Positions 3,660 to 32,015 of a stretch of DNA of 64,000 nucleotides are shown here, piece after piece. The stretch is taken from positions 682,001 to 746,000 of the forward strand of contig JALAAN010000010.1 of the NCBI GenBank assembly GCA_023078555.1, given 5' to 3'. Source of the DNA: Ulva prolifera. Its lineage: Eukaryota; Chlorophyta; Ulvophyceae; Ulvales; Ulvaceae. The translations under genes and the position numbers were made by a program. The stretch's first letter is position 1. The number at the start of each line of letters is the position of its first letter. A model generated the notes under the pieces. That model worked only from the letters and a program-made list of their open reading frames with translations, was not told where the DNA came from and did no database searches.

Positions 3660-5420
3660 TTAGGGGCTGAATCTTTGCACATGATGCTCTCTATGTCAAA
3701 GGAATGTGGTGTAGAAGTTTGGAGGCCATCAAGTGATAAGTCAGGGCAAGGGTTGCTATCAATTTTGAAAAGGCAGCGCGCTCTCCCGCCCCTCATGCAG
3801 AAATCCCGCGCCTCACAAAAACAGGTTCCCAACCTCACATTAGGGGCTGAATCTTTGCACATGATACTCTCTATGTCACAGGAATGTGGTCTAGAAGTTT
3901 GGAGGCAATCAAGTGATAAGTCAGGGCAAGGGCTCCTATCAATGTTGAAATGGCAGCGCGCTCTCCCGCCACTCATGCAGAAATCTCGCCCTCACAAAAA
4001 CAGGTTCCCAACCTCACGTTAGGGGCTGAATCTTTGCACATGATGCTCTCTATGTCAAAGGAATGTGGTCTAGAAGTTTGGAGGCAATCAAGTGACAAGT
4101 CAGGGCAAGGGTTGCTATCAATGTTGAAATGGCAGCGCGCTCTCCCGCCCCTCATGCAGAAATCTCGCCCTCACAAAAACAGGTTCCCAACCTCACGTTC
4201 GGGGCTGAATCTTTGCACATGATGCTCTCTATGTCAAAGGAATGTGGTGTAGAAGTTTGGAGGCAATCAAGTGATAAGTCAGGGCAAGGGTTGCTATCAA
4301 TGTTGAAAAGGCAGCGCGCTCTCCCGCCCCTCATGCAGAAATCCCGCGCCTCACAAAAACAGGTTCCCAACCTCACGTTTGGGGCTGAATCTTTGCACAT
4401 GATACTCTCTATGTCAAAGGAATGTCATGTAGAAGTTTGGAGGCAATCAAGTGATAAGTCAGGGCTAGGGCTGCTATCAATGTTGAAATGGCAGCACGCT
4501 CTCCCGCCACTCATGCAGAAATCTCGCCCTCGCAAAAACAGGTTCCCAACCTCACTTTAGGGGCTGAATCTTTGCACATGATGCTATCTATGTCAAATTA
4601 ATGTGATGTGATGGTTTGGAGGCAATCAAGTGATAACTCAGGGCTAGGGCTGCTTTAAATGTTGAAATGGCAGCGTGCTCCCATGCCACTCATGCAGAAT
4701 TCTCGCACCTCACCAAAACAGGTTCCCAACCTCACCTTAGGGGCTGAATCTTTGCACATGATGCTCTCTATGTCAAAGGAATGTGGTGTAGAAGTTTGGA
4801 GGCAATCAAGTGATAAGTCAGGGCTAGGGCTGCTATCAATGTTGAAATGGCAGTACGCTCTCCCGCCACTCATGCAGAAATCTCGCCCTCGCAAAAACAG
4901 GTTCCCAACCTCACGTTAGGGGCTGAATCTTTGCACATGATGCTATCTATGTCAAATTAATGTGATGTGAGGGTTTGGAGGCAATCAAGTGATAACTCAG
5001 GGCTAGGGCTGCTTTAAATGTTGAAATGGCAGCGTGCTCCCAAGCCACTCATGCAGAAATCTCGCACCTCACAAAAACAGGTTCCCATCCTCACCTTAGG
5101 GGCTGAATCTTTGCACATGATGCTCTCTATGTCAAAGGAATGTGGTGTAGAAGTTTGGAGGCAATCAAGTGATAAGTCAGGGCTAGGGCTGCCATCAATG
5201 TTGAAATGGCAGCGTGCTCCCATGCCACTCATGCAGAAATCTCGCCCTCGCAAAAACAGGTTCCCAACCTCACGTTAGGGGCTGAATCTTTGCACATGAT
5301 GCTCTCTATGTCAAAGGAATGTGCTCTAGAAGTTTGGAGGCAATCAAGTGATAAGTCAGGGCTAGGGCTGCTATCAATGTTGAAATGGCAGCGTGCTCCC
5401 ATGCCCCTCATGCAGAAATC
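3660..5420 (+). repeat. 1975-bp-offset duplication, right copy
   Basis: Second copy of the block at 1685-3445. It ends at the transition to domain 2. The last monomers (from 5198) already carry 'aatgtgctctag', the state that dominates domain 2, and it first appears in the left copy near 3348. The domain 1 to domain 2 change is therefore gradual, not a sharp joint. Confidence 0.86.
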
Positions 5421-5734
5421 TCGCCCTCACAAAAACAGGTTCCCAACCTCACGTTCGGGGCTGAATCTTTGCACATGATGCTCTCTATGTCAAAGGAATG
5501 TGCTCTAGAAGTTTGGAGGCAATCAAGTGATAAGTCAGGGCTAGGGCTGCTATCAATGTTGAAATGGCAGCGTGCTCCCATGCCCCTCATGCAGAAATCT
5601 CGCCCTCACAAAAACAGGTTCCCAACCTCACGTTCGGGGCTGAATCTTTGCACATGATGCTCTCTATGTCAAAGGAATGTGCTCTAGAAGTTTGGAGGCA
5701 ATCAAGTGATAAGTCAGGGCTAGGGCTGCTATCA
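5377..5734 (+). repeat. Single-monomer tandem duplication
   Basis: Two consecutive 179-bp monomers (5377-5555 and 5556-5734) are identical base for base. Both have 'cccatgcccctc', 'ccctcacaaaaac', 'gttcgggg' and 'aatgtgctctag'. The monomer before them (5198) has the same right half. This is the smallest-scale duplication seen and suggests slippage or unequal exchange by one unit. Confidence 0.9.
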
Positions 5735-5913
5735 ATGTTGAAATGGCACGCGCTCTCCCGCCACTCATGCAGAAATCCCGCGCCTCACAAAAACAGGTTC
5801 CCAACCTCACCTTAGGGGCTGAATCTTTGCACATGATGCTCTCTATGTCAAAGGAATGTGGTGTAGAAGTTTGGAGGCAATCAAGTGATAAGTCAGGGCT
5901 AGGGCTGCTTTAA
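5735..5913 (+). repeat. 1-bp-deleted monomer 'ggcacgcgctc' (first of five)
   Basis: 'aaatggcacgcgctctcc' replaces 'aaatggcagcgcgctctcc', a one-base loss near monomer position 15, so this monomer is 179 bp by a different route from the common short form. Further copies start at 15969, 21357, 23513 and 28005. All lie in domain 2 and all share the flanking order: a 'gttcgggg' short monomer before, and a monomer ending 'gctttaaatg' then 'tctcgcacctcac' after. The marker therefore descends from one event and tags five copies of the same higher-order block (offsets 10234, 5388, 2156 and 4492 bp). Confidence 0.9.
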
Positions 5914-7914
5914 ATGTTGAAATGGCAGCGTGCTCCCATGCCACTCATGCAGAAATCTCGCACCTCACAAAAACAGGTTCCCAACCTCACCTTAGGGGCT
6001 GAATCTTTGCACATGATGCTCTCTATGTCAAAGGAATGTGGTGTAGAAGTTTGGAGGCAATCAAGTGATAAGTCAGGGCTAGGGCTGCTATCAATGTTGA
6101 AATGGCAGCGCGCTCTCCCGCCACTCATGCAGAAATCCCGCGCCTCACAAAAACAGGTTCCCAACCTCACGTTAGGGGCTGAATCTTTGCACATGATGCT
6201 CTCTTTGTCAAAGGAATGTGGTCTAGAAGTTTGGAGGCAATCAAGTGATAAGTCAGGGCAAGGGTTGCTATCAATGTTGAAAAGGCAGCGCGCTCTCCCG
6301 CCCCTCATGCAGAAATCCCGCGCCTCACAAAAACAGGTTCCCAACCTCACGTTTGGGGCTGAATCCATGCACATGATACTCTCTATGTCAAAGGAATGTG
6401 GTGTAGAAGTTTGGAGGCAATCAAGTGATAAGTCAGGGCAAGGGCTGCTATCAATGTTGAAAAGGCAGCGCGCTCTCCCGCCCCTCATGCAGAAATCTCG
6501 CCCTCACAAAAACAGGTTCCCAACCTCACGTTAGGTGCTGAATCTTTGCACATGATGCTCTCTATGTCAAAGGAATGTGGTGTAGAAGTTTGGAGGCAAT
6601 CAAGTGATAAGTCAGGGCTAGGGCTGCCATCAATGTTGAAATGGCAGCGTGCTCCCATGCCACTCATGCAGAAATCCCGCGCCTCACAAAAACATGTTCC
6701 CAACATCACGTTAGGGGCTGAATCTTTGCACATGATGCTCTCTATGTCAAAGGAATGTGGTGTAGAAGTTTGGAGGCAATCAAGTGATAAGTCAGGGCTA
6801 GGGCTGCCATCAATGTTGAAATGGCAGCGTGCTCCCATGCCACTCATGCAGAAATCTCGCCCTCGCAAAAACAGGTTCCCAACCTCACGTTAGGGGCTGA
6901 ATCTTTGCACATGATGCTCTCTATGTCAAAGGAATGTGCTCTAGAAGTTTGGAGGCAATCAAGTGATAAGTCAGGGCTAGGGCTGCTATCAATGTTGAAA
7001 TGGCAGCGCGCTCTCCCGCCACTCATGCAGAAATCTCGCCCTCGCAAAAACAGGTTCCCAACCTCACGTTAGGGGCTGAATCTTTGCACATGATGCTATC
7101 TATGTCAAATTAATGTGATGTGAGGGTTTGGAGGCAATCAAGTGCTAACTCAGGGCTAGGGCTGCTTTAAATGTTGAAATGGCAGCGTGCTCCCAAGCCA
7201 CTCATGCAGAAATCTCGCCCTCACAAAAACAGGTTCCCAACCTCACGTTAGGGGCTGAATCTTTGCACATGATGCTCTCTATGTCAAAGGAATGTGGTGT
7301 AGAAGTTTGGAGGCAATCAAGTGATAAATCAGGGCTAGGGCTGCCATCAATGTTGAAATGGCAGCGTGCTCCCATGCCACTCATGCAGAAATCCCGCGCC
7401 TCACAAAAACATTTTCCCAACATCACGTTAGGGGCTGAATCTTTGCACATGATGCTCTCTATGTCAAAGGAATGTGCTCTAGAAGTTTGGAGGCAATCAA
7501 GTGATAAGTCAGGGCTAGGGCTGCTATCAATGTTGAAATGGCAGCGTGCTCCCATGCCCCTCATGCAGAAATCTCGCCCTCACAAAAACAGGTTCCCAAC
7601 CTCACGTTCGGGGCTGAATCTTTGCACATGATGCTCTCTATGTCAAAGGAATGTGGTGTAGAAGTTTGGAGGCAATCAAGTGATAAGTCAGGGCAAGGGC
7701 TGCTATCAATGTTGAAAAGGCAGCGCGCTCTCCCGCCCCTCATGCAGAAATCTCGCCCTCACAAAAACAGGTTCCCAACCTCACGTTAGGGGCTGAATCT
7801 TTGCACATGATGCTCTCTATGTCAAAGGAATGTGGTGTAGAAGTTTGGAGGCAATCAAGTGATAAGTCAGGGCTAGGGCTGCCATCAATGTTGAAATGGC
7901 AGCGTGCTCCCATG
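5914..7914 (+). repeat. Domain 2 monomers, unduplicated stretch
   Basis: These are ordinary monomers of the domain 2 repertoire: 'tctcgcacctcac', then 'ctctttgtc', then 'aaaaggcag' with 'gtttgggg' and 'gatactc', then short forms. The order is also seen near 16148, 20279, 21536, 23692 and 26029. Private substitutions are 'gaatccatgcac' near 6362 (normally 'gaatctttgcac'), 'gttaggtgctg' near 6533 and 'agtgctaactc' near 7141. No full-length duplicate of this stretch was found within the window. Confidence 0.7.
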
Positions 7915-10900
7915 CCACTCATGCAGAAATCCCGCGCCTCACAAAAACATGTTCCCAACATCACGTTAGGGGCTGAATCTTTGCACATGATGCTCTCTAT
8001 GTCAAAGGAATGTGCTCTAGAAGTTTGGAGGCAATCAAGTGATAAGTCAGGGCAAGGGTTGCTATCAATGTTGAAAAGGCAGCGCGCTCTCCCGCCCCTC
8101 ATGCAGAAATCCCGCGCCTCACAAAAACAGGTTCCCAACCTCACGTTTGGGGCTGAATCTTTGCACATGATACTCTCTATGTCAAAGGAATGTGGTGTAG
8201 AAGTTTGGAGGCAATCAAGTGATAAGTCAGGGCAAGGGCTGCTATCAATGTTGAAAAGGCAGCGCGCTCTCCCGCCCCTCATGCAGAAATCTCGCCCTCA
8301 CAAAAACAGGTTCCCAACCTCACGTTAGGGGCTGAATCTTTGCACATGATGCTCTCTATGTCAAAGGAATGTGGTGTAGAAGTTTGGAGGCAATCAAGTG
8401 ATAAGTCAGGGCTAGGGCTGCCATCAATGTTGAAATGGCAGCGTGCTCCCATTCCACTCATGCAGAAATCCCGCGCCTCACAAAAACAGGTTCCCAACCT
8501 CACGTTTGGGGCTGAATCTTTGCACATGATACTCTCTATGTCAAAGGAATGTGGTGTAGAAGTTTGGAGGCAATCAAGTGATAAGTCAGGGCAAGGGCTG
8601 CTATCAATGTTGAAAAGGCAGCGCGCTCTCCCGCCCCTCATGCAGAAATCTCGCCCTCACAAAAACAAGTTCCCAACCTCACGTTAGGGGCTGAATCTTT
8701 GCACATGATGCTCTCTATGTCAAAGGAATGTGGTGTAGAAGTTTGGAGGCAATCAAGTGATAAGTCAGGGCTAGGGCTGCCATCAATGTTGAAATGGCAG
8801 CGTGCTCCCATGCCACTCATGCAGAAATCCCGCGCCTCACAAAAACATTTTCCCAACATCACGTTAGGGGCTGAATCTTTGCACATGATGCTCTCTATGT
8901 CAAAGGAATGTGCTCTAGAAGTTTGGAGGCAATCAAGTGATAAGTCAGGGCTAGGGCTGCTATCAATGTTGAAATGGCAGCGCGCTCTCCCGCCACTCAT
9001 GCAGAAATCCCGCGCCTCACAAAAACAGGTTCCCAACCTCACGTTAGGGGCTGAATCTTTGCACATGATGCTCTCTTTGTCAAAGGAGAGTGGTCTAGAA
9101 GTTTGGAGGCAATCAAGTGATAAGTCAGGGCAAGGGTTGCTATCAATGTTGAAAAGGCAGCGCGCTCTCCCGCCCCTCATGCAGAAATCCCGCGCCTCAC
9201 AAAAACAGGTTCCCAACCTCACGTTTGGGGCTGAATCTTTGCACATGATACTCTCTATGTCAAAGGAATGTGGTGTAGAAGTTTGGAGGCAATCAAGGGA
9301 TAAGTCAGGGCAAGGGCTGCTATCAATGTTGAAAAGGCAGCGCGCTCTCCCGCCCCTCATGCAGAAATCGGGCCCTCACAAAAACAGGTTCCCAACCTCA
9401 CGTTAGGGGCTGAATCTTTGCACATGATGCTCTCTATGTCAAAGGAATGTGGTGTAGAAGTTTGGAGGCAATCAAGTGATAAGTCAGGGCTAGGGCTGCC
9501 ATCAATGTTGAAATGGCAGCGTGCTCCCATGCCACTCATGCAGAAATCCCGCGCCTCACAAAAACATGTTCCCAACATCACGTTAGGGGCTGAATCTTTG
9601 CACATGATGCTCTCTATGTCAAAGGAATGTGCTCTAGAAGTTTGGAGGCAATCAAGTGATAAGTCAGGGCTAGGGCTGCTATCAATGTTGAAATGGCAGC
9701 GTGCTCCCATGCCCCTCATGCAGAAATCTCGCCCTCACAAAAACAGGTTCCCAACCGCACGTTCGGGGCTGAATCTTTGCACATGATGCTCTCTATGTCA
9801 AAGGAATGTGGTGTAGAAGTTTGGAGGCAATCAAGTGATAAGTCAGGGCTAGGGCTGCTATCAATGTTGAAATGGCAGCGCGCTCTCCCGCCACTCATGC
9901 AGAAATCTCGCCCTCGCAAAAACAGGTTCCCAACCTCACGTTAGGGGCTGAATCTTTGCACATGATGCTATCTATGTCAAATTAATGTGATGTGAGGGTT
10001 TGGAGGCAATCAAGTGATAACTCAGGGCTAGGGCTGCTTTAAATGTTGAAATGGCAGCGTGCTCCCAAGCCACTCATGCAGAAATCTCGCACCTCACAAA
10101 AACAGGTTCCCATCCTCACCTTAGGGGCTGAATCTTTGCACATGATGCTCTCTATGTCAAAGGAATGTGGTGTAGAAGTTTGGAGGCAATCAAGTGATAA
10201 GTCAGGGCTAGGGCTGCTATCAATGTTGAAATGGCAGCACGCTCTCCCGCCACTCATGCAGAAATCTCGCCCTCGCAAAAACAGGTTCCCAACCTCACGT
10301 TAGGGGCTGAATCTTTGCACATGATGCTATCTATGTCAAATTAATGTGATGTGAGGGTTTGGAGGCAATCAAGTGATAACTCAGGGCTAGGGCTGCTTTA
10401 AATGTTGAAATGGCAGCGTGCTCCCATGCCACTCATGCAGAAATCTCGCCCTCACAAAAACAGGTTCCCAACCTCACGTTAGGGGCTGAATCTTTGCACA
10501 TGATGCTCTCTATGTCAAAGGAATGTGGTGTAGAAGTTTGGAGGCAATCAAGTGATAAGTCAGGGCTAGGGCTGCCATCAATGTTGAAATGGCAGCGTGC
10601 TCCCATGCCACTCATGCAGAAATCCCGCGCCTCACAAAAACATGTTCCCAACATCACGTTAGGGGCTGAATCTTTGCACATGATGCTCTCTATGTCAAAG
10701 GAATGTGCTCTAGAAGTTTGGAGGCAATCAAGTGATAAGTCAGGGCTAGGGCTGCTTTAAATGTTGAAATGGCAGCGTGCTCCCATGCCACTCATGCAGA
10801 AATCTCGCACCTCACAAAAACAGGTTCCCAACCTCACCTTAGGGGCTGAATCTTTGCACATGATGCTCTCTATGTCAAAGGAATGTGGTGTAGAAGTTTG

Positions 10901-10957
10901 GAGGCAATCAAGTGATAAGTCAGGGCTAGGGCTGCTATCAATGTTGAAATGGCAGCG
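7915..10957 (+). repeat. 3053-bp tandem duplication, left copy (17 monomers)
   Basis: This matches 10968-14010 at offset 3053 with no difference found. The copies share several otherwise rare states: 'cccattcc' (about 8451 and 11504), 'ggagagtgg' (about 9086 and 12139), 'caagggataag' (about 9295 and 12348), 'atcgggccctc' (an ApaI site at 9370 and 12423) and 'ccaaccgcacg' (about 9753 and 12806). The edges are 7914 (g) against 10967 (t), and 10958 (t) against 14011 (c). The copies therefore abut with the joint inside 10958-10967. Confidence 0.92.
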
Positions 10958-10967
10958 TGCTCCCATT

Positions 10968-13900
10968 CCACTCATGCAGAAATCCCGCGCCTCACAAAAA
11001 CATGTTCCCAACATCACGTTAGGGGCTGAATCTTTGCACATGATGCTCTCTATGTCAAAGGAATGTGCTCTAGAAGTTTGGAGGCAATCAAGTGATAAGT
11101 CAGGGCAAGGGTTGCTATCAATGTTGAAAAGGCAGCGCGCTCTCCCGCCCCTCATGCAGAAATCCCGCGCCTCACAAAAACAGGTTCCCAACCTCACGTT
11201 TGGGGCTGAATCTTTGCACATGATACTCTCTATGTCAAAGGAATGTGGTGTAGAAGTTTGGAGGCAATCAAGTGATAAGTCAGGGCAAGGGCTGCTATCA
11301 ATGTTGAAAAGGCAGCGCGCTCTCCCGCCCCTCATGCAGAAATCTCGCCCTCACAAAAACAGGTTCCCAACCTCACGTTAGGGGCTGAATCTTTGCACAT
11401 GATGCTCTCTATGTCAAAGGAATGTGGTGTAGAAGTTTGGAGGCAATCAAGTGATAAGTCAGGGCTAGGGCTGCCATCAATGTTGAAATGGCAGCGTGCT
11501 CCCATTCCACTCATGCAGAAATCCCGCGCCTCACAAAAACAGGTTCCCAACCTCACGTTTGGGGCTGAATCTTTGCACATGATACTCTCTATGTCAAAGG
11601 AATGTGGTGTAGAAGTTTGGAGGCAATCAAGTGATAAGTCAGGGCAAGGGCTGCTATCAATGTTGAAAAGGCAGCGCGCTCTCCCGCCCCTCATGCAGAA
11701 ATCTCGCCCTCACAAAAACAAGTTCCCAACCTCACGTTAGGGGCTGAATCTTTGCACATGATGCTCTCTATGTCAAAGGAATGTGGTGTAGAAGTTTGGA
11801 GGCAATCAAGTGATAAGTCAGGGCTAGGGCTGCCATCAATGTTGAAATGGCAGCGTGCTCCCATGCCACTCATGCAGAAATCCCGCGCCTCACAAAAACA
11901 TTTTCCCAACATCACGTTAGGGGCTGAATCTTTGCACATGATGCTCTCTATGTCAAAGGAATGTGCTCTAGAAGTTTGGAGGCAATCAAGTGATAAGTCA
12001 GGGCTAGGGCTGCTATCAATGTTGAAATGGCAGCGCGCTCTCCCGCCACTCATGCAGAAATCCCGCGCCTCACAAAAACAGGTTCCCAACCTCACGTTAG
12101 GGGCTGAATCTTTGCACATGATGCTCTCTTTGTCAAAGGAGAGTGGTCTAGAAGTTTGGAGGCAATCAAGTGATAAGTCAGGGCAAGGGTTGCTATCAAT
12201 GTTGAAAAGGCAGCGCGCTCTCCCGCCCCTCATGCAGAAATCCCGCGCCTCACAAAAACAGGTTCCCAACCTCACGTTTGGGGCTGAATCTTTGCACATG
12301 ATACTCTCTATGTCAAAGGAATGTGGTGTAGAAGTTTGGAGGCAATCAAGGGATAAGTCAGGGCAAGGGCTGCTATCAATGTTGAAAAGGCAGCGCGCTC
12401 TCCCGCCCCTCATGCAGAAATCGGGCCCTCACAAAAACAGGTTCCCAACCTCACGTTAGGGGCTGAATCTTTGCACATGATGCTCTCTATGTCAAAGGAA
12501 TGTGGTGTAGAAGTTTGGAGGCAATCAAGTGATAAGTCAGGGCTAGGGCTGCCATCAATGTTGAAATGGCAGCGTGCTCCCATGCCACTCATGCAGAAAT
12601 CCCGCGCCTCACAAAAACATGTTCCCAACATCACGTTAGGGGCTGAATCTTTGCACATGATGCTCTCTATGTCAAAGGAATGTGCTCTAGAAGTTTGGAG
12701 GCAATCAAGTGATAAGTCAGGGCTAGGGCTGCTATCAATGTTGAAATGGCAGCGTGCTCCCATGCCCCTCATGCAGAAATCTCGCCCTCACAAAAACAGG
12801 TTCCCAACCGCACGTTCGGGGCTGAATCTTTGCACATGATGCTCTCTATGTCAAAGGAATGTGGTGTAGAAGTTTGGAGGCAATCAAGTGATAAGTCAGG
12901 GCTAGGGCTGCTATCAATGTTGAAATGGCAGCGCGCTCTCCCGCCACTCATGCAGAAATCTCGCCCTCGCAAAAACAGGTTCCCAACCTCACGTTAGGGG
13001 CTGAATCTTTGCACATGATGCTATCTATGTCAAATTAATGTGATGTGAGGGTTTGGAGGCAATCAAGTGATAACTCAGGGCTAGGGCTGCTTTAAATGTT
13101 GAAATGGCAGCGTGCTCCCAAGCCACTCATGCAGAAATCTCGCACCTCACAAAAACAGGTTCCCATCCTCACCTTAGGGGCTGAATCTTTGCACATGATG
13201 CTCTCTATGTCAAAGGAATGTGGTGTAGAAGTTTGGAGGCAATCAAGTGATAAGTCAGGGCTAGGGCTGCTATCAATGTTGAAATGGCAGCACGCTCTCC
13301 CGCCACTCATGCAGAAATCTCGCCCTCGCAAAAACAGGTTCCCAACCTCACGTTAGGGGCTGAATCTTTGCACATGATGCTATCTATGTCAAATTAATGT
13401 GATGTGAGGGTTTGGAGGCAATCAAGTGATAACTCAGGGCTAGGGCTGCTTTAAATGTTGAAATGGCAGCGTGCTCCCATGCCACTCATGCAGAAATCTC
13501 GCCCTCACAAAAACAGGTTCCCAACCTCACGTTAGGGGCTGAATCTTTGCACATGATGCTCTCTATGTCAAAGGAATGTGGTGTAGAAGTTTGGAGGCAA
13601 TCAAGTGATAAGTCAGGGCTAGGGCTGCCATCAATGTTGAAATGGCAGCGTGCTCCCATGCCACTCATGCAGAAATCCCGCGCCTCACAAAAACATGTTC
13701 CCAACATCACGTTAGGGGCTGAATCTTTGCACATGATGCTCTCTATGTCAAAGGAATGTGCTCTAGAAGTTTGGAGGCAATCAAGTGATAAGTCAGGGCT
13801 AGGGCTGCTTTAAATGTTGAAATGGCAGCGTGCTCCCATGCCACTCATGCAGAAATCTCGCACCTCACAAAAACAGGTTCCCAACCTCACCTTAGGGGCT

Positions 13901-14010
13901 GAATCTTTGCACATGATGCTCTCTATGTCAAAGGAATGTGGTGTAGAAGTTTGGAGGCAATCAAGTGATAAGTCAGGGCTAGGGCTGCTATCAATGTTGA
14001 AATGGCAGCG
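10968..14010 (+). repeat. 3053-bp tandem duplication, right copy
   Basis: Right-hand copy of the block at 7915-10957. Its right part has itself been copied again: 11969-14242 matches 16278-18551 at offset 4309. That third copy has 'atctcgccctc' instead of the ApaI variant at the position of 12423, so the ApaI change is confined to the first two copies. The nested pattern gives an order of events: the long-offset duplication is older than the ApaI change, and the tandem 3053-bp duplication came after it. Confidence 0.9.
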
Positions 14011-16277
14011 CGCTCTCCCGCCACTCATGCAGAAATCTCGCCCTCGCAAAAACAGGTTCCCAACCTCACGTTAGGGGCTGAATCTTTGCACATGATGCTA
14101 TCTATGTCAAATTAATGTGATGTGAGGGTTTGGAGGCAATCAAGTGATAACTCAGGGCTAGGGCTGCTTTAAATGTTGAAATGGCAGCGTGCTCCCAAGC
14201 CACTCATGCAGAAATCTCGCACCTCACAAAAACAGGTTCCCAACCTCACCTTAGGGGCTGAATCTTTGCACATGATGCTCTCTATGTCAAAGGAATGTGG
14301 TGTAGAAGTTTGGAGGCAATCAAGTGATAAGTCAGGGCTAGGGCTGCTTTAAATGTTGAAATGGCAGCGTGCTCCCATGCCACTCATGCAGAAATCTCGC
14401 CCTCACAAAAACAGGTTCCCAACCTCACGTTAGGGGCTGAATCTTTGCACATGATGCTCTCTATGTCAAAGGAATGTGGTGTAGAAGTTTGGAGGCAATC
14501 AAGTGATAAGTCAGGGCTAGGGCTGCCATCAATGTTGAAATGGCAGCGTGCTCCCATGCCACTCATGCAGAAATCCCGCGCCTCACAAAAACATGTTCCC
14601 AACATCACGTTAGGGGCTGAATCTTTGCACATGATGCTCTCTATGTCAAAGGAATGTGCTCTAGAAGTTTGGAGGCAATCAAGTGATAAGTCAGGGCTAG
14701 GGCTGCCATCAATGTTGAAATGGCAGCGTGCTCCCATGCCACTCATGCAGAAATCCCGCGCCTCACAAAAACATGTTCCCAACATCACGTTAGGGGCTGA
14801 ATCTTTGCACATGATGCTCTCTATGTCAAAGGAATGTGCTCTAGAAGTTTGGAGGCAATCAAGTGATAAGTCAGGGCAAGGGTTGCTATCAATGTTGAAA
14901 AGGCAGCGCGCTCTCCCGCCCCTCATGCAGAAATCCCGCGCCTCACAAAAACAGGTTCCCAACCTCACGTTTGGGGCTGAATCTTTGCACATGATACTCT
15001 CTATGTCAAAGGAATGTGGTGTAGAAGTTTGGAGGCAATCAAGTGATAAGTCAGGGCAAGGGCTGCTATCAATGTTGAAAAGGCAGCGCGCTCTCCCGCC
15101 CCTCATGCAGAAATCTCGCCCTCACAAAAACAGGTTCCCAACCTCACGTTAGGGGCTGAATCTTTGCACATGATGCTCTCTATGTCAAAGGAATGTGGTG
15201 TAGAAGTTTGGAGGCAATCAAGTGATAAGTCAGGGCTAGGGCTGCCATCAATGTTGAAATGGCAGCGTGCTCCCATGCCACTCATGCAGAAATCCCGCGC
15301 CTCACAAAAACAGGTTCCCAACCTCACGTTTGGGGCTGAATCTTTGCACATGATACTCTCTATGTCAAAGGAATGTGGTGTAGAAGTTTGGAGGCAATCA
15401 AGTGATAAGTCAGGGCAAGGGCTGCTATCAATGTTGAAAAGGCAGCGCGCTCTCCCGCCCCTCATGCAGAAATCTCGCCCTCACAAAAACAAGTTCCCAA
15501 CCTCACGTTAGGGGCTGAATCTTTGCACATGATGCTCTCTATGTCAAAGGAATGTGGTGTAGAAGTTTGGAGGCAATCAAGTGATAAGTCAGGGCTAGGG
15601 CTGCCATCAATGTTGAAATGGCAGCGTGCTCCCATGCCACTCATGCAGAAATCCCGCGCCTCACAAAAACATTTTCCCAACATCACGTTAGGGGCTGAAT
15701 CTTTGCACATGATGCTCTCTATGTCAAAGGAATGTGCTCTAGAAGTTTGGAGGCAATCAAGTGATAAGTCAGGGCTAGGGCTGCTATCAATGTTGAAATG
15801 GCAGCGTGCTCCCATGCCCCTCATGCAGAAATCTCGCCCTCACAAAAACAGGTTCCCAACCTCACGTTCGGGGCTGAATCTTTGCACATGATGCTCTCTA
15901 TGTCAAAGGAATGTGGTGTAGAAGTTTGGAGGCAATCAAGTGATAAGTCAGGGCTAGGGCTGCTATCAATGTTGAAATGGCACGCGCTCTCCCGCCACTC
16001 ATGCAGAAATCCCGCGCCTCACAAAAACAGGTTCCCAACCTCACCTTAGGGGCTGAATCTTTGCACATGATGCTCTCTATGTCAAAGGAATGTGGTGTAG
16101 AAGTTTGGAGGCAATCAAGTGATAAGTCAGGGCTAGGGCTGCTTTAAATGTTGAAATGGCAGCGTGCTCCCATGCCACTCATGCAGAAATCTCGCACCTC
16201 ACAAAAACAGGTTCCCAACCTCACCTTAGGGGCTGAATCTTTGCACATGATGCTCTCTATGTCAAAGGAATGTGGTG
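14011..16277 (+). repeat. Domain 2 monomers between duplications
   Basis: Mixed block. The 'cccaagcc' monomer at about 14175 unusually has 'cccaacctcacc'. Two successive 180-bp monomers at about 14529-14888 are near-identical ('acatgttcccaacatc' with 'aatgtgctctag'), a second case of single-monomer duplication. About 14.9-15.6 kb corresponds to about 8.1-8.8 kb at offset 6824, including the 'aaaacaagttccc' variant (about 8665, 11718 and 15488). The second 'ggcacgcgctc' monomer lies at 15969. Confidence 0.75.
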
Positions 16278-18551
16278 TAGAAGTTTGGAGGCAATCAAGT
16301 GATAAGTCAGGGCTAGGGCTGCTATCAATGTTGAAATGGCAGCGCGCTCTCCCGCCACTCATGCAGAAATCCCGCGCCTCACAAAAACAGGTTCCCAACC
16401 TCACGTTAGGGGCTGAATCTTTGCACATGATGCTCTCTTTGTCAAAGGAGAGTGGTCTAGAAGTTTGGAGGCAATCAAGTGATAAGTCAGGGCAAGGGTT
16501 GCTATCAATGTTGAAAAGGCAGCGCGCTCTCCCGCCCCTCATGCAGAAATCCCGCGCCTCACAAAAACAGGTTCCCAACCTCACGTTTGGGGCTGAATCT
16601 TTGCACATGATACTCTCTATGTCAAAGGAATGTGGTGTAGAAGTTTGGAGGCAATCAAGGGATAAGTCAGGGCAAGGGCTGCTATCAATGTTGAAAAGGC
16701 AGCGCGCTCTCCCGCCCCTCATGCAGAAATCTCGCCCTCACAAAAACAGGTTCCCAACCTCACGTTAGGGGCTGAATCTTTGCACATGATGCTCTCTATG
16801 TCAAAGGAATGTGGTGTAGAAGTTTGGAGGCAATCAAGTGATAAGTCAGGGCTAGGGCTGCCATCAATGTTGAAATGGCAGCGTGCTCCCATGCCACTCA
16901 TGCAGAAATCCCGCGCCTCACAAAAACATGTTCCCAACATCACGTTAGGGGCTGAATCTTTGCACATGATGCTCTCTATGTCAAAGGAATGTGCTCTAGA
17001 AGTTTGGAGGCAATCAAGTGATAAGTCAGGGCTAGGGCTGCTATCAATGTTGAAATGGCAGCGTGCTCCCATGCCCCTCATGCAGAAATCTCGCCCTCAC
17101 AAAAACAGGTTCCCAACCGCACGTTCGGGGCTGAATCTTTGCACATGATGCTCTCTATGTCAAAGGAATGTGGTGTAGAAGTTTGGAGGCAATCAAGTGA
17201 TAAGTCAGGGCTAGGGCTGCTATCAATGTTGAAATGGCAGCGCGCTCTCCCGCCACTCATGCAGAAATCTCGCCCTCGCAAAAACAGGTTCCCAACCTCA
17301 CGTTAGGGGCTGAATCTTTGCACATGATGCTATCTATGTCAAATTAATGTGATGTGAGGGTTTGGAGGCAATCAAGTGATAACTCAGGGCTAGGGCTGCT
17401 TTAAATGTTGAAATGGCAGCGTGCTCCCAAGCCACTCATGCAGAAATCTCGCACCTCACAAAAACAGGTTCCCATCCTCACCTTAGGGGCTGAATCTTTG
17501 CACATGATGCTCTCTATGTCAAAGGAATGTGGTGTAGAAGTTTGGAGGCAATCAAGTGATAAGTCAGGGCTAGGGCTGCTATCAATGTTGAAATGGCAGC
17601 ACGCTCTCCCGCCACTCATGCAGAAATCTCGCCCTCGCAAAAACAGGTTCCCAACCTCACGTTAGGGGCTGAATCTTTGCACATGATGCTATCTATGTCA
17701 AATTAATGTGATGTGAGGGTTTGGAGGCAATCAAGTGATAACTCAGGGCTAGGGCTGCTTTAAATGTTGAAATGGCAGCGTGCTCCCATGCCACTCATGC
17801 AGAAATCTCGCCCTCACAAAAACAGGTTCCCAACCTCACGTTAGGGGCTGAATCTTTGCACATGATGCTCTCTATGTCAAAGGAATGTGGTGTAGAAGTT
17901 TGGAGGCAATCAAGTGATAAGTCAGGGCTAGGGCTGCCATCAATGTTGAAATGGCAGCGTGCTCCCATGCCACTCATGCAGAAATCCCGCGCCTCACAAA
18001 AACATGTTCCCAACATCACGTTAGGGGCTGAATCTTTGCACATGATGCTCTCTATGTCAAAGGAATGTGCTCTAGAAGTTTGGAGGCAATCAAGTGATAA
18101 GTCAGGGCTAGGGCTGCTTTAAATGTTGAAATGGCAGCGTGCTCCCATGCCACTCATGCAGAAATCTCGCACCTCACAAAAACAGGTTCCCAACCTCACC
18201 TTAGGGGCTGAATCTTTGCACATGATGCTCTCTATGTCAAAGGAATGTGGTGTAGAAGTTTGGAGGCAATCAAGTGATAAGTCAGGGCTAGGGCTGCTAT
18301 CAATGTTGAAATGGCAGCGCGCTCTCCCGCCACTCATGCAGAAATCTCGCCCTCGCAAAAACAGGTTCCCAACCTCACGTTAGGGGCTGAATCTTTGCAC
18401 ATGATGCTATCTATGTCAAATTAATGTGATGTGAGGGTTTGGAGGCAATCAAGTGATAACTCAGGGCTAGGGCTGCTTTAAATGTTGAAATGGCAGCGTG
18501 CTCCCAAGCCACTCATGCAGAAATCTCGCACCTCACAAAAACAGGTTCCCA
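16278..18551 (+). repeat. Copy of 11969-14242 at offset 4309 (24 monomers)
   Basis: Except for the 'tctcgccctc' against 'tcgggccctc' difference near 16732, I found no mismatch with 11969-14242. Shared rare states are 'ggagagtgg' (about 16448), 'caagggataag' (about 16657) and 'ccaaccgcacg' (about 17115). Part of it is reused once more: about 16.72-17.64 kb matches about 19.23-20.16 kb at offset 2515, where the 'ccgcacg' change is absent. Confidence 0.87.
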
Positions 18552-19642
18552 TCCTCACCTTAGGGGCTGAATCTTTGCACATGATGCTCTCTATGTCAAA
18601 GGAATGTGGTGTAGAAGTTTGGAGGCAATCAAGTGATAAGTCAGGGCTAGGGCTGCTTTAAATGTTGAAATGGCAGCGTGCTCCCATGCCACTCATGCAG
18701 AAATCTCGCACCTCACAAAAACAGGTTCCCAACCTCACCTTAGGGGCTGAATCTTTGCACATGATGCTCTCTATGTCAAAGGAATGTGGTGTAGAAGTTT
18801 GGAGGCAATCAAGTGATAAGTCAGGGCTAGGGCTGCTATCAATGTTGAAATGGCAGCGCGCTCTCCCGCCACTCATGCAGAAATCCCGCGCCTCACAAAA
18901 ACAGGTTCCCAACCTCACGTTAGGGGCTGAATCTTTGCACATGATGCTCTCTTTGTCAAAGGAATGTGGTCTAGAAGTTTTCGAGGCAATCAAGTGATAA
19001 GTCAGGGCAAGGGTTGCTATCAATGTTGAAAAGGCAGCGCGCTCTCCCGCCCCTCATGCAGAAATCCCGCGCCTCACAAAAACAGGTTCCCAACCTCACG
19101 TTGGGGGCTGAATCTTTGCACATGATACTCTCTATGTCAAAGGAATGTGGTGTAGAAGTTTGGAGGCAATCAAGTGATAAGTCAGGGCAAGGGCTGCTAT
19201 CAATGTTGAAAAGGCAGCGCGCTCTCCCGCCCCTCATGCAGAAATCTCGCCCTCACAAAAACAGGTTCCCAACCTCACGTTAGGGGCTGAATCTTTGCAC
19301 ATGATGCTCTCTATGTCAAAGGAATGTGGTGTAGAAGTTTGGAGGCAATCAAGTGATAAGTCAGGGCTAGGGCTGCCATCAATGTTGAAATGGCAGCGTG
19401 CTCCCATGCCACTCATGCAGAAATCCCGCGCCTCACAAAAACATGTTCCCAACATCACGTTAGGGGCTGAATCTTTGCACATGATGCTCTCTATGTCAAA
19501 GGAATGTGCTCTAGAAGTTTGGAGGCAATCAAGTGATAAGTCAGGGCTAGGGCTGCTATCAATGTTGAAATGGCAGCGTGCTCCCATGCCCCTCATGCAG
19601 AAATCTCGCCCTCACAAAAACAGGTTCCCAACCTCACGTTCG
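18552..19642 (+). repeat. Monomers with a private indel
   Basis: Ordinary domain 2 monomers except for one at about 18840-19020. It reads 'gaagttttcgaggcaatc' at 18974-18991 instead of 'gaagtttggaggcaatc', a one-base gain plus substitution that also creates a CpG in the otherwise CpG-free half. The next monomer has 'cacgttgggggctg' (about 19097). This is the only irregular indel found outside 28.1-32.0 kb apart from the inherited 'ggcacgcgctc' deletion. Confidence 0.75.
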
Positions 19643-28110: not shown

Positions 28111-31100
28111 CTCTTGTCAAAGGAATGTGGTGTAGAAGTTTGGAGGCAATCAAGTGATAAGTCAGGGCTAGGGCTGCTTTAAATGTTGAAATGGCAGCGT
28201 GCTCCCATGCCACTCATGCAGAAATCTCGCACCTCACAAAAACAGGTTCCCAACCTCACCTTAGGGGCTGAATCTTTGCACATGATGCTCTCTATGTCAA
28301 AGGAATGTGGTGTAGAAGTTTGGAGGCAATCAAGTGATAAGTCAGGGCTAGGGCTGCTATCAATGTTGAAATGGCAGCGCGCTCTCCCGCCACTCATGCA
28401 GAAATCCCGCGCCTCACAAAAACAGGTTCCCAACCTCACGTTAGGGGCTGAATCTTTGCACATGATGCTCTCTATGTCAAAGGAATGTGGTGTAGAAGTT
28501 TGGAGGCAATCAAGTGATAAGTCAGGGCTAGGGCTGCTATCAATGTTGAAATGGCAGCGCGCTCTCCCGCCACTCATGCAGAAATCTCGCCCTCACAAAA
28601 ACAGGTTCCCAACCTCACGTTCGGGGCTGAATCTTTGCACATGATGCTCTCTATGTCAAAGGAATGTGGTGTAGAAGTTTGGAGGCAATCAAGTGATAAG
28701 TCAGGGCTAGGGCTGCTATCAATGTTGAAATGGCAGCGCGCTCTCCCGCCACTCATGCAGAAATCCCGCGCCTCACAAAAACAGGTTCCCAACCTCACCG
28801 TTAGGGGCTGAATCTTTGCACATGATGCTCTCTATGTCAAAGGAATGTGGTGTAGAAGTTTGGAGGCAATCAAGTGATAAGTCAGGGCTAGGGCTGCTTT
28901 AAATGTTGAAATGGCAGCGTGCTCCCATGCCACTCATGCAGAAATCTCGCACCTCACAAAAACAGGTTCCCAACCTCACCTTAGGGGCTGAATCTTTGCA
29001 CATGATGCTCTCTATGTCAAAGGAATGTGGTGTAGAAGTTTGGAGGCAATCAAGTGATAAGTCAGGGCTAGGGCTGCTATCAATGTTGAAATGGCAGCGC
29101 GCTCTCCCGCCACTCATGCAGAAATCCCGCGCCTCACAAAAACAGGTTCCCAACCTCACGTTAGGGGCTGAATCTTTGCACATGATGCTCTCTTTGTCAA
29201 AGGAATGTGGTCTAGAAGTTTGGAGGCAATCAAGTGATAAGTCAGGGCAAGGGTTGCTATCAATGTTGAAAAGGCAGCGCGCTCTCCCGCCCCTCATGCA
29301 GAAATCCCGCGCCTCACAAAAACAGGTTCCCAACCTCACGTTTGGGGCTGAATCTTTGCACATGATACTCTCTATGTCAAAGGAATGTGGTGTAGAAGTT
29401 TGGAGGCAATCAAGTGATAAGTCAGGACAAGGGTTGCTATCAATGTTGAAAGGCAGCGCGCTCTCCCGCCCCTCATGCAGAAATCCCGCGCCTCACAAAA
29501 ACAGGTTCCCAACCTCACGTTAGGGGCTGAATCTTTGCACATGATGCTCTCTATGTCAAAGTAATGTGGTGTAGAAGTTTGGAGGCAATCAAGTGATAAC
29601 TCAGGGCTAGGGCTGCTTTAAATGTTGAAATGGCAGCGTGCTCCCAAGCCACTCATGCAGAAATCTCGCACCTCACAAAAACAGGTTCCCATCCTCACCT
29701 TAGGGGCTGAATCTTTGCACATGATGCTCTCTATGTCAAAGGAATGTGGTGTAGAAGTTTGGAGGCAATCAAGTGATAAGTCAGGGCTAGGGCTGCTATC
29801 AATGTTGAAATGGCAGCGCGCTCTCCCGCCACTCATGCAGAAATCTCGCCCTCGCAAAAACAGGTTCCCAACCTCACGTTAGGGGCTGAATCTTTGCACA
29901 TGATGCTATCTATGTCAAATTAATGTGATGTGAGGGTTTGGAGGCAATCAAGTGATAACTCAGGGCTAGGGCTGCTTTAAATGTTGAAATGGCAGCGTGC
30001 TCCCAAGCCACTCATGCAGAAATCTCGCACCTCACAAAAACAGGTTCCCATCCTCACCTTAGGGGCTGAATCTTTGCACATGATGCTCTCTATGTCAAAG
30101 GAATGTGGTGTAGAAGTTTGGAGGCAATCAAGTGATAAGTCAGGGCTAGGGCTGCTATCAATGTTGAAATGGCAGCACGCTCTCCCGCCACTCATGCAGA
30201 AATCTCGCCCTCGCAAAAACAGGTTCCCAACCTCACGTTAGGGGCTGAATCTTTGCACATGATGCTATCTATGTCAAAGTAATGTGATGTAGAGGTTTGG
30301 AGGCAATCAAGTGATAAGCTCAGGGCTAGGGCTGCTTATAAATGTTGAAATGGCAGCGTGCTCCCATGCCACTCATGCAGAAATCTCGCACCTCACAAAA
30401 ATAGGTTCCCAACCTCACCTTAGGGGCTGAATCTTTGCACATGATGCTCTCTATGTCAAAGAATGTGGTGTAGAAGTTTGGAGGCAATCAAGTGATAAGT
30501 CAGGGCTAGGGCTGCTATCAATGTTGAAATGGCAGCGCGCTCTCCCGCCACTCATGCAGAAATCCCGCACCTCACAAAAACAGGTTCCCAACCTCACCTT
30601 AGGGGCTGAATCTTTGCACATGATGCTCTCTATGTCAAAGGAATGTGGTGTAGAAGTTTGGAGGCAATCAAGTGATAAGTCAGGGCTAGGGCTGCTATCA
30701 ATGTTGAAATGGCAGCGCGCTCTCCCGCCACTCATGCAGAAATCCCGCGCCTCACAAAAACAGGTTCCCAACCTCACGTTAGGGGCTGAATCTTTGCACA
30801 TGATGCTCTCTATGTCAAAGGAATGTGGTCTAGAAGTTTGGAGGCAATCAAGTGATAAGTCAGGGCTAGGGCTTGCTATCAATGTTGAAATGGCAGCGTG
30901 CTCTCCCATGCCACTCATGCAGAAATCCCGCGCCTCACAAAAACATGTTCCCAACCTCACGTTAGGGGCTGAATCTTTGCACATGATGCTCTCTATGTCA
31001 AAGGAATGTGGTCTAGAAGTTTGGAGGCAATCAAGTGATAAGTCAGGGCTAGGGCTGCTATCAATGTTGAAATGGCAGCGTGCTCCCATGCCCCTCATGC

Positions 31101-32015
31101 AGAAATCTCGCCCTCACAAAAACAGGTTCCCAACCTCACGTTCGGGGCTGAATCTTTGCACATGATGCTCTCTATGTCAAAGGAATGTGGTGTAGAAGTT
31201 TGGAGGCAATCAAGTGATAAGTCAGGGCTAGGGCTGCTATCAATGTTGAAATGGCAGCGTGCTCCCATGCCCCTCATGCAGAAATCTCGCGCCTCACAAA
31301 AACAGGTTCCCAACCTCACCGTTAGGGGCTGAATCTTTGCACATGATGCTCTCTATGTCAAAGGAATGTGGTGTAGAAGTTTGGAGGCAATCAAGTGATA
31401 AGTCAGGGCTAGGGCTGCTATCAATGTTGAATGGCAGCGCGCTCTCCCGCCACTCATGCAGAAATCTCCGCGCTTCACAAAAACAGGTTCCCAACCTCAC
31501 GTTAGGGGCTGAATCTTTGCACATGATACTCTCTATGTCACAGTAATGTGATGTAGAGGTTTGGAGGCAATCAAGTGATAAGCTCAGGGCTAGGGCTGCT
31601 ATCAATGTTGAAATGGCAGCGCGCTCTCCCAGCCACTCATGCAGAAATCCCGCGCCTCACAAAAACAGGTTCCCAACCTCACCGTTAGGGGCTGAATCTT
31701 TGCACATGATACTCTCTATGTCAAAGGAATGTGGTCTAGAAGTTTGGAGGCAATCAAGTGATAAGTCAGGGCAAGGGCTCCTATCAATGTTGAAATGGCA
31801 GCGCGCTCTCCCGCCACTCATGCAGAAATCTCGCCCTCACAAAAACAGGTTCCCAACCTCACGTTAGGGGCTGAATCTTTGCACATGATGCTCTCTATGT
31901 CAAAGGAATGTGGTCTAGAAGTTTGGAGGCAATCAAGTGACAAGTCAGGGCAAGGGTTGCTATCAATGTTGAAATGGCAGCGCGCTCTCCCGCCCCTCAT
32001 GCAGAAATCCTCGCC
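28111..32015 (+). repeat. Irregular zone of merged-variant monomers
   Basis: About seventeen odd changes fall in under 4 kb. Base-dropping cases: 'ctctcttgtc' (28109-28118, from ctctaTgtc/ctctTtgtc), 'ttgaaaggc' (near 29446, from aaaAgg/aaaTgg), 'tcaaagaatg' (near 30456) and 'ttgaatggc' (near 31426). Base-keeping cases: 'cctcaccgttagg' (near 28793, 31313 and 31676), 'gataagctcagg' (near 30313 and 31577), 'gctgcttataaatg' (near 30331), 'gggcttgct' (near 30869), 'gctctcccatgcc' (near 30900), 'aatctccgcgc' (near 31463), 'ctcccagcc' (near 31625) and 'aatcctcgccc' (near 32007). Mixed cases: 'caaagtaatg' (near 29557 and 30275), 'cagtaatgtgatgtagagg' (near 31541). About 28.90-30.47 kb is otherwise a copy of about 23.69-25.25 kb (offset 5210-5211), where none of these changes exist. 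The monomer order switches from domain 2 to domain 3 type at about 30.5-30.9 kb. Confidence 0.85.

Follow-up and report, generated by a model that had tools for sequence, protein, structure and literature searches.

A 3.9-kb patch of satellite DNA (positions 28,111–32,015; C10:710,111–714,015) very probably represents a mixed-copy consensus artefact at an assembly join within an array of ~180-bp monomers, as judged from the sequence, and in all likelihood it does not correspond to any true biological feature. This patch, here called the zone, lies within a window of 64,000 bases (C10:682,001–746,000) from an 88.9-Mb assembly of 44 contigs, which its size and satellite suggest to be eukaryotic; positions given without a contig are those of the window. 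All 64,000 bases form a single tandem array with a 180-base unit, as determined by Tandem Repeats Finder. A 44-base satellite word has 2,308 forward-strand matches and no reverse-strand matches, and the first places listed are on C10. We cut 355 units lying between 356 anchors from the window and aligned them.

The 355 aligned monomers contain 22 rows with irregular indels. Five of these rows carry the same deletion, ggcacgcgc, which recurs throughout the left domain (5,749, 15,983, 21,371, 23,527 and, on the forward strand as a control outside the artefact, 28,019). This deletion occurs at seven places in the genome, six at C10:678–710 kb and one at C10:826,474, and, rather than being an artefact, seems to be a variant genuinely inherited in the left domain. 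When it is set aside, 16 of the remaining 17 indel rows fall within 28,111–32,015, a segment that makes up 6.1% of the window, in agreement with the original prediction that nearly all irregular indels of the window are confined to 3.9 kb. The 16 rows span 28,115–32,009 and represent 15 events, one of which involves two bases. The chance of finding 15 of 16 events in the zone is ~1e-17 by a hand-calculated binomial, which takes the events as independent and uses zone limits set post hoc from the data. Some of the irregular strings repeat, within the window only inside the zone. The lone other indel outside the zone, at 18,978–18,982, reads gtttTCgagg and combines an inserted base with a private substitution close by.

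Scored as runs, the zone contains 14 simple indels, 4 substitutions and 3 complex runs. The remainder of the window contains no simple indel, 49 substitution and 7 complex runs, with the ggcacgcgc deletion scored as a common word and the 18,978 event as complex. This composition bears on an alternative in which the zone is a real boundary between two higher-order repeat domains, built from older and more diverged monomers. The monomer repertoire does shift at the zone, as this alternative would have it. Older monomers, however, predict an excess of private substitutions, and 4 substitution runs in 3.9 kb against 49 in the other 60 kb are no clear excess, while simple indel runs occur in the zone and nowhere else in the window. 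Two of the four substitution runs recur in other copies. The other two, at C10:711,548 and 712,555, are unique in the sequence examined and could be private, but by eye both are combinations of common states. Considering also that the same signature appears at all 11 of the other marker places described below, we regard a boundary of older monomers as highly improbable.

Most indels of the zone had been predicted to keep both or neither of two alleles that distinguish common monomers. We defined an insertion as a union when 15-mers common in the clean array (at least 5 occurrences) can be recovered by either of two different one-base deletions, and a deletion as a drop when the same holds for two different insertions. 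This strict test covers 14 of the 15 zone events and omits the two-base insertion near 30,902. Six of the 10 insertions are unions, compared with 6.8% of 2,999 random insertions placed in clean parts of a 144-kb stretch around the window (C10:642,001–786,000). Three of the four deletions are drops, compared with 13.2% of 2,995 random deletions and 19.9% of 3,000 homopolymer deletions. Shortening the words to 11 or 9 leaves these six unions and three drops unchanged, against null rates of 8.5–10.5% for unions and 18–31% for drops. Both classes thus exceed their null rates, as predicted. The remaining 5 of 14 events do not qualify under the strict definition: three are plain insertions, one is a plain deletion and one is unclassed, and several of them resemble mixtures by eye.

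All events are given on the forward strand from the indel rows and class assignments, and the six strings quoted in the original prediction are all present at their predicted positions, with gap placement shifting by a few bases between alignments. The first event, at 28,115 in the aligned monomers, is a drop in which ctctAtgtc and ctctTtgtc become ctcttgtc (quoted as ctctcttgtc). At 28,799–28,800, and again at 31,320 and 31,683, cacGtt and cacCtt are united as cacCGtt (cctcaccgttagg), a string found at 8 places genome-wide, every one on C10. A drop at 29,452 converts gaaaTggc and gaaaAggc to gaaaggc (quoted as ttgaaaggc); its string has 7 places genome-wide, again exclusively on C10. The union of aaGtcagg and aaCtcagg as aaGCtcagg (gataagctcagg) occurs at 30,318–30,319 and 31,582, and at 3 places genome-wide, all on C10. 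At 32,009–32,011, atcCcg and atcTcg are united as atcCTcg (quoted as aatcctcgccc). The drop at 31,430, gaaatggc to gaatggc, is also a homopolymer shortening and is a weak case.

Other events look like mixtures by eye and are classed differently by the strict test. An extra base at 30,333–30,338 resembles a mix of gctTTAaatg and gctATCaatg and is classed as a plain insertion; its string is also found near C10:447,119 and 846,586. The caaagaatg at 30,461–30,462 appears to have lost a base at a G/T site and is classed as a plain deletion. At 30,873, gggcttgc resembles a mix of gggCtgc and gggTtgc, and at 31,625–31,631, cccGcc appears merged with cccAtgcc or cccAagcc to give cccAGcc, a string also present near C10:824,699; both are plain insertions in the strict test. 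The same class is assigned to atcTCcg at 31,466–31,469, derived from atcTcg and atcCcg, and this string is classed as a union at two other places, C10:649,002 and C10:343,115. Finally, the two-base insertion at 30,902–30,910 appears to join cgctctcccgcc and cgtgctcccatgcc; it lies outside the strict test and is complex.

The 144-kb stretch contains four indel patches, at 648.5–649.1, 710.1–714.0 (the zone), 749.0–752.7 and 779.2–785.9 kb, and the array between them is nearly free of indels. Outside the four patches, with an inserted element left out, simple indels number 4, split evenly between drops and plain deletions, alongside 104 substitution and 14 complex runs. Errors gathered into patches with accurate sequence between them are what a mixed-copy artefact would leave. 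Such an artefact should also place indels at sites that vary between copies, which is the case in the zone; elsewhere it holds for unions and not clearly for drops. Of 7 events in the 649-kb patch, 2 are unions and 1 is a drop, and the rest are plain insertions and plain deletions, 2 of each. The 17 events of the 750-kb patch include 5 unions and 2 drops; a further 4 are unclassed and 6 are plain, 5 of these being deletions and 1 an insertion. The 782-kb patch has 15 events, namely 5 unions, 2 drops and 8 plain indels, of which 6 are deletions and 2 insertions. Unions are in excess in these patches, and drops are near the null rate, as at 782 kb, where they account for 2 of 8 deletions tested.

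This stretch of the array also carries a 2.3-kb insertion at C10:653,822–656,136 (L005:1822–4136). It has 37-bp terminal inverted repeats that are 84% complementary and begin with CACTACAAGG, and by eye is flanked by a 3-bp TAT duplication. We take it to resemble a non-autonomous CACTA-type DNA transposon.

Homopolymer shortenings, such as aaaa for aaaaa, are also present in the 750- and 782-kb patches. Errors of this kind would be expected had the indels arisen from inaccurate reads in a patch left unpolished, say from a single noisy long read serving as gap filler, without any mixing of copies. Such ordinary deletions indicate that mixing is not the sole source of error at these two places. 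In the zone, however, five A are kept in 21 of 21 caaaaa-type runs, so homopolymer error is not dominant there. Low accuracy also fails to account for the unions, which make up 6 of 10 insertions in the zone rather than the few per cent seen for random indels, and which number 3 among 122 runs when purely noisy reads are simulated with an indel-only vote (see below). We therefore consider low read accuracy without mixing a very unlikely origin of the zone.

To follow the signature along C10, we searched six marker strings, of which four originate in the zone and two in patches elsewhere. They have 8, 3, 7, 3, 15 and 10 places, or 46 in all, every one on C10 between 331 and 847 kb; none of the 46 falls in C10:1–331,000. 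With a 5-kb join these form 15 clusters, four of them a single match and one of them the zone. The median nearest-neighbour distance of marker places is 684 bp, compared with a mean of 4,110 and a minimum of 1,317 in 5,000 uniform draws, which span 331–860 kb, a range chosen after the matches were known. Thirty-nine of the 46 places lie in examined sequence and are located in indel patches. All 11 further places chosen by marker have 5–18 non-substitution runs per 2–4 kb, and because they were picked by marker, the evidence lies in their remaining events. These 11 together with the four known patches cover all 15 clusters, some inspected in part.

A marker-free sample consists of 16 satellite stretches of 10 kb picked before the markers existed. 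It also contributed to the definition of common words, which introduces a mild bias. Eight of the stretches adjoin the window (L004–L011) and include the 649-, 750- and 782-kb patches. The eight scattered samples (L002, L003, L012, L013 and L016–L019, with L002 and L017 satellite only in part) contain no union. L012 has one drop, L002 and L013 have one plain deletion each, and L018 has one plain insertion. In L017 there are 12 complex runs, 2 drops and 4 plain indels (3 insertions and 1 deletion), together with an interruption by non-satellite sequence and one N at C10:302,438. Of four other loci, L015 has satellite at its start only, and L014, L020 and L021 have no satellite. A solitary diverged relative of the monomer, with 81% identity, is found on the minus strand at C7:1,985,163–1,985,333 (L001); sequence near it looks by eye like an intron-bearing gene that we presume to be of the leishmanolysin-type metalloprotease family.

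Unions could also arise by slipped recombination or conversion, in which a crossover between two monomer types falls one base out of register and keeps both bases. A slipped crossover would indeed yield a union. Under this mechanism the left flank should carry the haplotype of the first base and the right flank that of the second, a switch that we examined in 42 unions from nine patches. Twelve of these are informative on both flanks: 1 agrees with the prediction, 1 is reversed and 10 show no switch, so that the predicted pattern is not seen. In the other 30 of 42 one flank or both are mixed or uninformative, which limits the reach of the test. Inherited unions would moreover be expected on clean haplotypes, like the recurrent left-domain deletion ggcacgcgc, but throughout the sequence examined the unions are located in indel patches. 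Slipped recombination is, in our judgement, barely credible as the source of these strings.

Runs of N occur inside 2 of the 11 fetched marker patches; the one at C10:344,117 is 374 long and the one at C10:581,595 exactly 500. The zone itself (28,111–32,015) is free of N. The anchors around the 374-N run are 484 bases apart, leaving a remainder of 124 of 180, and those around the 500-N run are 1,125 bases apart, leaving 45. Both runs are out of monomer register and therefore fit padded gaps better than masked array, with the register of the 500-N run a weak sign, as its patch is very dirty. We infer that they are assembly gaps rather than withheld stretches, which also read N. Through these N runs, the association with gaps expected of a mixed-copy artefact is seen in 2 of the 11 fetched patches.

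The zone had also been placed at a switch of monomer type, and the repertoire does change there. Self-similarity scans are confounded by the zone indels, and we therefore prefer 180-mer sharing with the zone treated as a separate block. With the zone left out, 690–710 kb shares 14% of 180-mers with 714–730 kb and 14% with 730–748.9 kb, while the latter two segments have 65% in common. This fits a false join and suggests that the two sides of the zone may be non-neighbours. Domain change and patch are not always coupled: 690–710 kb and 681–688 kb have 13% of 180-mers in common with no intervening patch, whereas the flanks of the 649-kb patch (642–648 and 649–653.7 kb) have 68% in common. In the self-similarity scan, left–right similarity dips to 0.34–0.37 at window positions 5,000–8,000, where there is no indel patch, probably at a natural domain boundary.

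Two further features of array organisation were observed. Sets of rare substitutions at 8,669–17,119 of the window reappear at a spacing of 3,053 bases, one set also at +4,309 bases, and are probably recent local duplications of multi-monomer blocks. The segment C10:753–779 kb has 54–68% of 180-mers in common with C10:400,001–410,000 (L016) and only 38–40% with its left neighbour at 730–748.9 kb, a likeness that could reflect either a distant duplication or a misplaced segment.

Taken together, the recurrence in 11 of 11 patches, the N runs and the simulation described here support the proposal that the zone is a consensus of reads from different copies. In our model, the zone would be a weak assembly join within the ~180-bp satellite array, at which reads belonging to distinct monomers or segments of the array were averaged, probably for want of reads with a unique placement. 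A gap-preferring aligner would render a substitution between copies as an insertion plus a deletion, and a vote near 50:50 would then leave both bases in place, giving a union, or remove both, giving a drop. The model presumes the involvement of an assembler or gap filler, as well as low coverage at the join.

We simulated this process over ~54 kb in 60 replicates, where each tract was represented by ten reads with error rates of 4% for insertions, 4% for deletions and 1% for substitutions, drawn either from one tract or as five plus five from two tracts. Under indel-only alignment with a majority vote, unmixed reads give 3 unions and 15 drops, and mixed reads 155 and 115. The other classes grow as well, with unmixed and mixed counts of 6 and 91 for plain insertions, 80 and 150 for plain deletions, 2 and 62 for substitutions, and 16 and 398 for complex runs. 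Complex runs are thus 398 of 972 in the mixed simulation, compared with 3 of 21 in the zone. With MAFFT and a column majority, mixing changes unions from 23 to 41 and drops from 11 to 7, and other errors swamp both. Judging by the difference between the two consensus methods, the signature seems to need reads of mixed origin as well as an aligner in which a substitution is rendered as paired gaps. O(ND) alignment uses insertions and deletions only. An excerpt of the Canu description states that read correction employs O(ND) alignment and a DAG (PMC5411767).

The patches might instead flag two true arrangements of the array, carried by homologues or mixed cells that differ by unequal exchange, a reading we hold to be unlikely. 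Were it true, the averaged sequence would be wrong, yet its position would mark a real structural polymorphism of the satellite. For the mixed-copy artefact that we favour, the consequences are practical. The 15 marker clusters, spread over about half a megabase of one array, should not be given a biological reading, and across them it is unsafe to rely on array length, on domain order or on any analysis of higher-order repeats. The useful outcome is the union/drop signature together with a map of unsafe joins. As the signature is detectable from sequence alone, it could act as a read-free warning of mixed-copy joins elsewhere.

In the open-licence literature, covered mainly by title and in general assembly papers, we found no description of unions or drops between copies as a marker. 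The zone is nevertheless comparable to several known situations. It resembles the collapsed or mis-threaded repeats of long-read assemblies, in the portions of that literature consulted, in that errors arise where near-identical copies resist unique read placement. For the DXZ1 satellite, the excerpt available describes placing reads for polishing by unique markers (PMC7484160), and part of the Canu paper notes possible indel errors where the contig template has read boundaries (PMC5411767). A section of PMC10320752 reports contigs separated by 500 Ns once 3D-DNA, a Hi-C method, had been used for scaffolding; one C10 patch is alike, with exactly 500 N, while the zone differs in having no N and would correspond to a closed or filled join. 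Like natural domain boundaries in higher-order satellite arrays, the zone has a shift of monomer repertoire nearby, but the change at 5–8 kb of the window takes place without an indel patch.
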